Notes under the pieces: generated by a model
Seen by the model: the letters and a program-made list of their open reading frames with translations, nothing else
Database searches by the model: none
What the model was told of the DNA's origin: nothing
Translations under genes and position numbers: made by a program
NCBI GenBank assembly: GCA_947479915.1
Contig: CANKAU010000005.1
Coordinates: forward strand, 1 to 64,000
From: Chloroflexota bacterium
GTDB taxonomy: Bacteria > Chloroflexota > Dehalococcoidia > UBA2979
Direction of reading: 5' to 3'
DNA: 64,000 bases
Part shown: positions 23,462 through 60,235 of the stretch, in pieces
How positions within the stretch are numbered: the first letter of the stretch is position 1
Layout of the letters: every line of letters begins with the position of its first letter

Positions 23462-23932
23462 TTACTCGGCAGCCGGGGCTTCGGCGGCGGGCGCCTCGGC
23501 AGCAGCGGCCTCGGCCGCGGCAGCCTCCTCCGCAGCCTTGGCGGCGGCGGCAGCGGCTTCCTCGGCAGCCTTCGCAGCAGCCTCGGCCTCAGCCTTGGCG
23601 GCCTCGCGGGCCTCGGCAGCAGCCTTCTCGGCGGCGGCGGCGGCCTCGCGCTCCACGCGGCTCGGCTTGGTCGGCTGCTGGCGCGGGGCGACCGCGATCA
23701 GGCCTTCCTTGTGGAGGATGCGGTGCACGGTGTCGGAGGGCTGCGCGCCCACGCCCAGCCAGTACTTGATGCGCTCCTCGTTCACCACGATCTCGGTCGG
23801 CTCGGAGCGCGGGTTGTAGTGACCCACGATCTCGACGAAGTCGCCGTCACGGCGCGCGTTCTGGTCCGCGACGACGAGGCGGTACGAGGGCTGGTGCTTC
23901 TGGCCGGTGCGGCGCAGGCGGATACGTAGCAA
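23462..23932 (-). CDS. rpsP: Ribosomal protein bS16 with long Ala/Glu-rich tail
   Basis: The first 85 residues are a normal bS16: MLRIRLRRTGQKHQPSYRLV, ARRDGDFVEIVGHYNPRSE and NEERIKYWLGVGAQPSDTV. Residues 95-156 are an added tail made almost only of Ala, Glu and Lys, ending in APAAEAPAAE; it is predicted to be one long charged helix plus a Pro-broken end. bS16 is usually 80-100 residues, so this is a marked extension. The same codon bias as the rest of the gene argues against a frameshift. Second gene of the ffh-rpsP-khpA-rimM block. Confidence 0.96.
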   Translation of the reverse strand: MLRIRLRRTGQKHQPSYRLVVADQNARRDGDFVEIVGHYNPRSEPTEIVVNEERIKYWLGVGAQPSDTVHRILHKEGLIAVAPRQQPTKPSRVEREAAAAAEKAAAEAREAAKAEAEAAAKAAEEAAAAAAKAAEEAAAAEAAAAEAPAAEAPAAE

Positions 23933-24073: not shown

Positions 24074-25408
24074 CTACATCCCCAGCATACGCATGATCCC
24101 CCCGGCACCCTTGCCGGAGGTCATCGCTTGCATCAGTTTGCGGGCATCCTTGAACTGATTCAAGAGGCGGTTCACATCTGCGGGGGTTGTCCCTGATCCC
24201 CGGGCGATGCGCCGACGGCGGGATCCGTTCAGGATTTCCGGGTTTCGGCGCTCCTGGAGGGTCATCGAGCGGACGATCGCTTCGCTCTGGCGGAAGAATC
24301 CGTCGTTGAAATCCACCCCGCCGAGTTGCTTTTTGATGCCCGAGGCCCCCGGAAGCATGTCCAGCAGGCCCCCCAGCGGCCCCATGGACTTCACCTGCTC
24401 CATCTGGCCCAGGAAGTCCTCCAGGTCGAACTGGCCGCTCCGCATCCGCTTCGTCATGTCCTCGACGCTGCGGGTGCCCATCGAGGCCTTGGCCTTTTCG
24501 ACGAGGCTGACCACGTCACCCATGCCGAGGACGCGCGAGGCGAAGCGATCCGGGTGGAAGTCCTCAAGCGCTTCGAGGCGCTCGCCGGTGGTGATGAGCT
24601 TGATCGGGAGGCCGGTGACCTCGCGGACGGAGAGGACGGCGCCACCGCGGCTGTCCGAATCCACCTTCGTCACGACGATGCCGGTGCCTTCGATCGCCTC
24701 GTCGAACTCCTTGGCGATCGTCACGGCCTCCTGGCCCGACATCGCGTCGACGACGATCAACACCTCGGTCGGATCCACTTCGTCCGCGAGCGCGGCGAGG
24801 GCATCGGCGGTCGCGTCGTCGAGCGCGACAGCGCCGACGGTGTCCACGATGAAGGCCGTGGCGTTCTGCTTCTTGGCCTCGGCCAGCGCGCGGCGCGCGA
24901 CATCGACCGCGGGCGCTTCCTTTTCCTCGACGTAGCAGGGCACATCGATGGAGCTCGCGAGCACCTGGAGCTGCTCGGAGGCAGCCACGCGCTCGAAGTC
25001 GGTGGAGACGAGCAGCGGGCGGTGCCCGGCGTTCTTCAGGCGCAGCGCGAGGCGGCCGGCCAGCGTGGTCTTGCCGGAGCCCTTGGTGCCGACCACCAGG
25101 ATCTTCACCATGCCGCTGTCGGGCTTGAGCAGCGGCGCATCCTCGCCGCCGAGCGTCGTGACCAGCTCGGCGTGCACGATACCGATGACCTGCTGGCCGG
25201 GGGTGATCGAGTTCAGGACTTCCTGGCCGAGCGCCTTCTCGCGCACGCGGGCGATGAAGTCACGCACCACCTTGAAGTTGACGTCCGCCTCGAGCAGCGC
25301 GATGCGCACCTCGCGCAGCGCCTCGTCGAGTTCCTTCTCGCCGATGCGGCCGCCCGAGCCGAGGCGTCGGAAGGTGTTCTGGAGTCGTTCAGAGAGTGCG
25401 TCGAGCAT
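24074..25408 (-). CDS. ffh: Signal recognition particle protein Ffh with altered GTPase motifs
   Basis: A 444-residue SRP54 homologue: N domain (1-95), G domain (96-300), M domain (about 320-444). SRP RNA-binding residues are normal (RRRRIARGSGTTPADVNRLL) and GLGMGD-type linker VLGMGDVVSLVEKA is present. The GTPase motifs differ from the near-universal forms: P-loop GTKGSGKTT instead of G-L-Q-G-S-G-K-T-T (K109), DFERVAA for D-x-x-R-P-A-A, DTVGA (189-193) for DTAGR, and TKVDSDSRGG for TKxDGxxRGG. The P-loop Lys, D137, R140, D189 and TKxD are kept. Function in co-translational targeting is expected but GTPase control may be changed. Heads the ribosomal block, 141 bases before rpsP. Confidence 0.95.
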   Translation of the reverse strand: MLDALSERLQNTFRRLGSGGRIGEKELDEALREVRIALLEADVNFKVVRDFIARVREKALGQEVLNSITPGQQVIGIVHAELVTTLGGEDAPLLKPDSGMVKILVVGTKGSGKTTLAGRLALRLKNAGHRPLLVSTDFERVAASEQLQVLASSIDVPCYVEEKEAPAVDVARRALAEAKKQNATAFIVDTVGAVALDDATADALAALADEVDPTEVLIVVDAMSGQEAVTIAKEFDEAIEGTGIVVTKVDSDSRGGAVLSVREVTGLPIKLITTGERLEALEDFHPDRFASRVLGMGDVVSLVEKAKASMGTRSVEDMTKRMRSGQFDLEDFLGQMEQVKSMGPLGGLLDMLPGASGIKKQLGGVDFNDGFFRQSEAIVRSMTLQERRNPEILNGSRRRRIARGSGTTPADVNRLLNQFKDARKLMQAMTSGKGAGGIMRMLGM

Positions 25409-25668: not shown

Positions 25669-26682
25669 CTACTCGAGGCCGCGCTCCGCCATCATCGCGA
25701 CGACGTCCGTCAGGCGGCAGGAGTAGCCCCATTCGTTGTCGTACCAGGAGATGGTCTTTGCCATGCCACCCTCGAGGATCGCGGTGGAGGCGGCGTCGTG
25801 GATCGCGGAGCCGGGGTGGCCCTTGAAGTCCATCGAGACCAGCTCGTCCTTCTCGTAGTAGAGGAAGTTCTTGAGCGGTCCGCTGGCTGCGGCCATGTAG
25901 GCCTCGTTGATCGCGCCCACGGAGGGCTTGTCGCGCAGCGTGGTGACGAGGTCCAGCAGCGACACGGTCGGCGTGGGCACGCGGAACGCGATGCCATCGA
26001 ACTTGCCGGCGAGCTCCGGGATGATCCCGGCGACGGCGTCCGAGGCGCCCGAGGACGTCGGCACGATGTTCAGGGCGGCAGCGCGGGCGCGGCGGAGATC
26101 CTTGTGCGTGCCGTCCACGAGGTTCTGGTCGCCGGTGTACGAGTGGATGGTCGACATGAAGCCGCGCTCTACGCCGAAGGCGTCGTGCAGCACCTTGATC
26201 GCGAGCACCACGCAGTTGGTGGTGCAGGAGCCGGCGGAGATCACCCTGTGCGACTTCGCGTCGTACTGCTGGTCGTTCGCGCCCATGATCACGGTCCAGT
26301 CCACGCTCTTGCCGGGCGCGGAGATGACGACCTTCTTCACGGAGTCGCGGATGTGCGCGCCAGCCGACTTGCCGTCGCGGAACTCGCCCGTGCATTCGAG
26401 GACCACGTCCACGTCCGCGTCGCCCCACGGGATCTCGCCGGGGTTGCTGGCGTTGAAGACGGCAACCTCGTGCTTGCCGACCTTGAAGGAGTCGGTGCCG
26501 TCGATGATCTCGGCGGGGAAGCGGCCGTAGTCAGAGTCATAGCGGAGCAGGTGCGTTCGAAGGGCGACCGGGCCGCGGTTGATCGCGACGATCTCGAAGT
26601 CGTCCTGGCGGTTCTCGAACCATGCGCGGAAGGCCTGGCGTCCGGTCCGACCGAACCCGTTGATGCCGACTCGCAACGTCAT
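25669..26682 (-). CDS. gap: Type I glyceraldehyde-3-phosphate dehydrogenase
   Basis: A 337-residue GAPDH. The NAD fold is GINGFGRTGRQAFRAW, the catalytic Cys is C153 in AGSCTTNCVVLA with the His partner in STIHSYTGDQ, and the C-terminus has SWYDNEWGYSCRLTD. At the end of strand 2 the usual I-N-D-L is I-N-R-G (N35, R36): the acidic residue that grips the adenosine ribose of NAD is replaced by Arg. This suggests NADP use or dual specificity (inference). The following region is also one residue short. No pgk adjoins it; it lies downstream of eno and an unknown gene on the same strand. Confidence 0.95.
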   Translation of the reverse strand: MTLRVGINGFGRTGRQAFRAWFENRQDDFEIVAINRGPVALRTHLLRYDSDYGRFPAEIIDGTDSFKVGKHEVAVFNASNPGEIPWGDADVDVVLECTGEFRDGKSAGAHIRDSVKKVVISAPGKSVDWTVIMGANDQQYDAKSHRVISAGSCTTNCVVLAIKVLHDAFGVERGFMSTIHSYTGDQNLVDGTHKDLRRARAAALNIVPTSSGASDAVAGIIPELAGKFDGIAFRVPTPTVSLLDLVTTLRDKPSVGAINEAYMAAASGPLKNFLYYEKDELVSMDFKGHPGSAIHDAASTAILEGGMAKTISWYDNEWGYSCRLTDVVAMMAERGLE

Positions 26683-60012: not shown

Positions 60013-60040
60013 GCGTCCCGCCTCGAACGAGGCGGGACGC
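60013..60040 (+). terminator. Hairpin terminator before the cobalamin riboswitch
   Basis: GCGTCCCGCCTCG, AA, CGAGGCGGGACGC: a 13-pair stem (inner pairs probably open as a loop) 14 bases after the upstream stop codon and 23 before the riboswitch. No T-tract. Confidence 0.7.
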
Positions 60041-60063
60041 GGTGCTATGCTCCGCCGCATTCG

Positions 60064-60163
60064 ACGTGGTGTCCGGGGAAGACCGGTGCGAAACCGGCGC
60101 TGTCCCGCAACTGTGACTCGCTACGCCATCCGGCGGGCGGGGAGCCAGAGTACCGGCCCACGT
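60064..60163 (+). promoter_or_regulatory. Cobalamin (AdoCbl-type) riboswitch aptamer
   Basis: Carries the conserved B12-box features: GACCGGTGCGAAACCGGC and GCTGTCCCGCAACTGTGA in the core and GGAGCCAGAGTACCGGCCC near the 3' end. The closing P1 stem is ACGTGG (60064-60069) with CCACGT (60158-60163). It precedes the cobalamin-binding lipoprotein gene by about 125 bases and should repress the btuF-cobB-cobQ set when cobalamin is plentiful. Confidence 0.92.
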
Positions 60164-60235
60164 GTTCTTGTCGGACCTGCGAGGACAGGCGACGGCAGGC
60201 TGCGTGGCATCGCCTCGCACCCCGCCTTCCATCCT

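Follow-up and report, generated by a model that had tools for sequence, protein, structure and literature searches.

The arginine of the DTAGR motif in the GTPases of the signal recognition particle (SRP) is described as strictly conserved (Arg191; PMC2568955), and its counterpart in FtsY is needed to activate both GTPases. What becomes of this GTPase site when Ffh reads DTVGA instead? The question is raised by an ffh gene in the window, that is, the whole 64,000-nucleotide stretch of DNA analysed here, which belongs to a Dehalococcoidia-class Chloroflexota bacterium. The original prediction had described an Ffh with altered GTPase motifs and a normal RNA-binding domain, and each motif that it named is present (GTKGSGKTT from residue 107, RVAA from 140, DTVGA from 189 and TKVDS from 247). 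The relevant features are as follows.

24074..25408, minus strand: ffh (signal recognition particle protein), ATG start codon, 444 aa with N, G and M domains; the genome's only ffh (profile and Pfam matches)
25064..25090, minus strand: P-loop GTKGSGKTT, residues 107-115 (motif reading, alignment)
25082-25084, minus strand: codon of K109, which replaces Gln (T. aquaticus Q107) (alignment)
25052..25054, minus strand: R119, Lys in all sampled Ffh from outside the family (alignment)
24971..25000, minus strand: insertion-box DFERVAASEQ, residues 137-146; Pro141 changed to Val; D137, R140 and Q146 kept (alignment)
24830..24844, minus strand: DTVGA, residues 189-193, DTAGR elsewhere; Arg193 (T. aquaticus R191) changed to Ala (alignment)
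24656..24670, minus strand: TKVDS, residues 247-251; Asp250 kept, Gly251 changed to Ser (alignment)
24131..24433, minus strand: M domain, signal-peptide and RNA binding (Pfam, alignment)
24203-24229, minus strand: NGSRRRRIA, inside the M domain (alignment)
23462..23932, minus strand: rpsP, downstream neighbour of ffh (ORF list)
25669..26682, minus strand: gapdh, upstream neighbour of ffh (profile match)
G000:C1:118545-119372: FtsY of the window genome (SRP54-type GTPase match)
about G000:C1:104778-105039: SRP RNA of the large type, normal GGAA loop region (RNA-model match)

Residue numbers of the window Ffh equal those of Pyrococcus SRP54, where Lys113, Asp137, Arg140, Gln146, Asp189 and Arg193 have been described (PMC2568955), and are two higher than those of T. 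aquaticus (Q107 = 109, R191 = 193). The RNA-binding sequence GSRRRRIA is kept, as predicted. A cobalamin riboswitch is also present in the window (60023-60176, plus strand), at 35 bits just above the gathering score.

The open reading frame is the genuine and sole Ffh of a bacterium with a complete SRP (Ffh, SRP RNA and FtsY). Its whole-protein score against TIGR00959 is 530 bits (cut-off 473.2 bits), and SRP54_N (PF02881), SRP54 (PF00448) and SRP_SPB (PF02978) are all matched in a single chain. The DTAGR arginine is a conserved feature of Ffh on which the family profile does not depend as a criterion. In an AlphaFold2 model most ten-residue blocks of the G domain (residues 100-290) have pLDDT values of 79-95; the nearest solved structures are Ffh proteins, with B. 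subtilis Ffh (7o5b) the best match in sequence and fold. The altered residues are encoded by AAG (K109), GTG (V141), GTC (V191), GCT (A193) and TCG (S251). The genome is a draft of 2.32 Mb in 67 contigs, 93.6% complete, which leaves some room to explain these motifs by errors in sequencing or assembly, or by a canonical ffh at another place. Such an explanation is nevertheless extremely improbable: the assembled genome has only two full SRP54-type GTPases, Ffh and FtsY, and no second canonical ffh, and the A193 codon is at least two bases from any Arg codon. Independently assembled relatives also carry the same residues, and the motif changes are therefore neither sequencing error nor chance. 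A third, weak SRP54-type match (C43) was rejected as a second ffh because it is an ArgK/MeaB-type GTPase.

Alignment with related Ffh, the first check suggested for the original prediction, shows that the altered form recurs. The DTAGR arginine is absent from all 38 sampled Ffh of the window's GTDB family (f1), where residue 193 is Ala (27), Ile (6), Thr (4) or Val (1). Lys109 is present in 36 of the 38, and Ser251 and Arg119 in every one. D137, R140, Q146, D189, G192 and D250, the last being the specificity Asp, are invariant throughout, which extends to all 38 the earlier claim that D137, R140, D189 and the TKxD aspartate are kept. Residue 191 is more variable, with Arg in 18 (DTRGA), Val in 14 and Gln in three. 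In the tree most of the family's other branches include DTRGA, DTVGA is characteristic of the branch that holds the window, and for this reason DTVGA looks derived from the DTRGA form. In many genera (L011-L030) DTRGA places an arginine two residues earlier than in DTAGR. Of the 105 positions with at least 93% invariance among outgroup Ffh, only ten differ in the family; five of these fall within or next to the GTPase motifs (108, 109, 141, 193 and 194), and another, 119, sits in the helix directly after the P-loop. TKVDS was rejected as a unique mark of the altered Ffh, TKxDS/N being present in canonical Paenibacillus-type Ffh as well. Ffh of this family also occur on contigs of public MAGs (L055, L057) whose titles, Dehalococcoides mccartyi and Thermoflexus hugenholtzii, look wrong.

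The wider comparison covers 189 Ffh, comprising 60 further Ffh from the class and the earlier set. R191 (T. aquaticus numbering) is absent in 62 of the 189, and K107 is present in 60 of these; conversely, R191 is kept in 118 of the 120 Ffh without K107. The two residues coexist in nine Ffh, from families f16 and f36, in which the P-loop lysine stands for Gln107, Val or Met for Pro139, and DTAGR is intact. Pro139 is in fact replaced in every K107 Ffh. K107 without R191 occurs in the window's family and eight others (f1, f31, f34, f50, f53, f59, f60, f66 and f70), and the DTAGR arginine is replaced on this background by Tyr, Gln, Cys, His or small residues. The two Ffh with neither residue come from genus g6, inside the window's family, and have Gln at 107 and Ala at 139; we read this Gln107 as a probable K-to-Q reversal. 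The original observation was right, but its scope and interpretation were incomplete, since the altered form is fixed in the family and occurs in eight more. In six K107 Ffh of f59 and f66 (L248, L250, L255, L257, L265 and L268) DTAGR is replaced by DTxGQ, the form with the Gln61 of Ras.

With the motif columns left out, the tree requires three changes for Lys107 and four for Arg191, and constraining the K107 Ffh to one clade gives a slightly better likelihood than the free tree. The loss of R191 as a single clade was tried as well; here the free tree is better by 38 log units (p-AU 0.087). A single loss of R191 and several losses are both compatible with the trees. An independent-pairs test of K107 against R191 yields two to four independent pairs, at which the sign test has no power, and Fisher tests of the counts ignore relatedness and were not relied on. 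The tie between R191 loss and K107 is suggestive rather than proven because independent events are few.

Does the partner compensate? The FtsY of the window genome has the motifs GVNGSGKTT, DTFRAAA, DTAGR and TKLDG. N111, the insertion-box arginine and DTAGR are kept in each of the three groups of FtsY compared, 31 from the window's family, 22 from the other families with Lys107 and 16 from the remaining families, and no compensating change was found in the N111, DTFRA and DTAGR motifs of the 31 family and 38 other FtsY. In the FtsY check suggested by the original prediction these motifs are unchanged, but a family-specific Lys-to-Arg change mirrors one in Ffh. FtsY residue 136, after the P-loop, is Arg in 31/31 family members (including L167-L196) and Lys in 38/38 others, and the homologous Ffh residue 119 has changed from Lys to Arg in 38/38 family members and in none outside. 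A separate change, Gly to Ala at FtsY residue 251, is seen in 21 of 22 non-family Lys107 genomes (L306-L324) and is absent from the window's family. An SRP RNA that lacks its Alu part was considered and rejected; short stretches matched the small model and longer stretches the large one.

The lost Gln and Arg had been assigned to the composite active site formed with FtsY, and published work on T. aquaticus Q107 and R191 bears this out. Their FtsY homologs, N302 and R386, define Class II mutants, in which the complex forms but neither GTPase is activated (PMC517823). In the solved complex no side chains other than Q107 of Ffh and N111 of FtsY contact the nucleotide of the opposite partner, and Arg191/195 is a late-docking residue whose FtsY mutant has the same phenotype, with both sites impaired (PMC517823). 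Arg138 is the arginine with the main stimulatory role in the GDP:AlF4 complex (PMC9599734), and the window Ffh keeps it as R140. Lys or Arg fingers are used by SIMIBI dimers (PMC9599734).

Judged from the sequences compared, the altered Ffh is a family-wide, and partly class-wide, step-wise rebuilding of the GTPase site. Because Lys+Arg intermediates exist (f16, f36), the P-loop change Gln107Lys, together with Pro139 to Val or Met and with DTAGR still intact, probably came first. Loss of the DTAGR arginine on this K107/non-Pro139 background would have been the second step, and a third, in the window's family, would have brought DTRGA and then DTVGA, TKVDS and, in Ffh and FtsY alike, the Lys-to-Arg change that follows the P-loop. 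We propose, with a probability of roughly 45%, that in this rebuilt site a lysine across the interface replaces the need for the Ffh DTAGR arginine. As the side chain of residue 107 reaches the partner's nucleotide, a lysine there would add positive charge at the twinned GTPs, like the signature lysine of MinD across its dimer, and could make Arg191 dispensable; the contact of Lys107 itself is an inference, its geometry being taken by homology from Q107. Since the main stimulatory arginine is kept, we think that the Ffh:FtsY pair still hydrolyses GTP. FtsY, with its canonical site, would keep normal hydrolysis chemistry, and the two GTPs would thus probably be activated unequally. It is more doubtful that SRP reciprocal activation as a whole has switched from a DTAGR arginine latch to an interface lysine, convergently with MinD, in a series from canonical through Lys+Arg and Lys-only forms to the absence of the GTPase in one genus. 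Against the proposed role of the interface lysine, genus g6 has Gln107 yet lacks R191, and the MinD lysine lies one residue earlier in the loop.

The main rival to the proposed interface lysine is a half-site mechanism, in which Ffh would be a slow or nearly inactive GTP binder, hydrolysis by FtsY alone would dissociate the complex, and K107 would be neutral or structural. Both missing residues are indeed on the Ffh side, opposite a canonical FtsY, and FtsY mutants of the half-site type show nearly normal turnover, which means that one hydrolysis is enough (PMC517823). A dead site would, however, have no need of D137, R140 and Q146, which are invariant in Ffh, though these are also interface residues; the homologous FtsY arginine mutant was impaired at both sites rather than one (PMC517823), and the tie between R191 loss and K107 is left unexplained. 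We consider this mechanism possible and on the unlikely side.

Decay is less probable still. Here relaxed selection on the SRP GTPase cycle would mark a lineage that is heading for the loss of SRP, a loss that genus g5 of the window's family seems to have undergone, and SRP also seems to be missing altogether from several other families of the class. In the g5 genome G009 (1.2 Mb, 88% complete) the order eno-gapdh-ffh-rpsP is the same as in the window, and the position of ffh between gapdh and rpsP is taken by a 134-aa open reading frame (L147:3677-4081; G009:C19) that matches the Ffh M domain (PF02978, 83 bits) and has neither N nor G domain. Its RNA-binding stretch, SNERKREIA, has lost arginines. 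When every candidate in G009 and G023 was scored, neither genome yielded FtsY, any other SRP54-type GTPase or an SRP RNA (rpsP is also absent from the G023 assembly). Genus g5 thus seems to have dropped the GTP-splitting part of Ffh, as seen in one genome. Yet the genomes of g5 are reduced, with a GC content of about 33% (the value of the G009 ffh contig is 33%), against 69% for the window. In the window's family at large the variant is fixed across many genera, the catalytic residues are 100% kept, and FtsY and SRP RNA are intact in most genera. The family's altered Ffh is, on substitution counts, evolving under purifying selection, with a G-domain dN/dS of about 0.11-0.16 between the window and four congeners (simple NG86 counts).

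The apparent absence of SRP elsewhere in the class comes from a survey of 294 genomes for SRP54-type GTPases, in which the best ten candidates per genome were scored. On these candidates 18 genomes have no SRP54-type GTPase and 13 have only weak side matches; 26 of these 31 are at least 90% complete, including single-contig genomes of f13 at 99-100%. With all candidates checked, none was found in G055, G056 or G090. SRP RNA was found in none of 15 SRP54-less genomes tested, and rpsP is present in every tested genome of at least 90% completeness. The whole SRP (Ffh, FtsY and, where tested, SRP RNA) therefore appears to be absent in several families of the class. Apparently SRP-less members are G055, G090 and G136 (f13/g29), G108, G170, G239 and others (f13/g75), and further f62, f71, f73, f76, f77, f78, f83, f84, f14/g30 and f43/g156.

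These lineages, together with the single M-domain-only genome, bear on the universality of SRP. With the natural Arg-less lineages and their intermediates, one can test what the residue does, and in which order the GTPases are activated, without having to engineer mutants. A limited literature search found no publications on Ffh without the DTAGR arginine or on SRP loss in Dehalococcoidia.

How does the window protein compare with known systems? With bacterial Ffh (TIGR00959; T. aquaticus, E. coli, B. subtilis) it shares the N, G and M domains, GSRRRRIA, the residues D137, R140, Q146, D189 and D250, and a paired FtsY and SRP RNA; it differs in Lys for Gln107, Val for Pro139, Ala for Arg191, Ser for Gly in TKxDG and Arg for Lys after the P-loop. 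The G009 protein, rather than the window gene, resembles mitochondrial MAP67/mL105 (PMC8321541), likewise the M-domain remnant of an Ffh that has lost N and G, although it is bacterial and stands at the original ffh locus. With the deviant Walker A ATPases MinD, ParA and Get3 (SIMIBI) the window Ffh has in common an extra P-loop lysine and a dimerising NTPase with nucleotides at the interface. In MinD and ParA, however, this lysine is second in the loop (GKGGVGKT) whereas in the window Ffh it is third (GTKGSGKT), and by every profile and by fold the window protein is an SRP GTPase.
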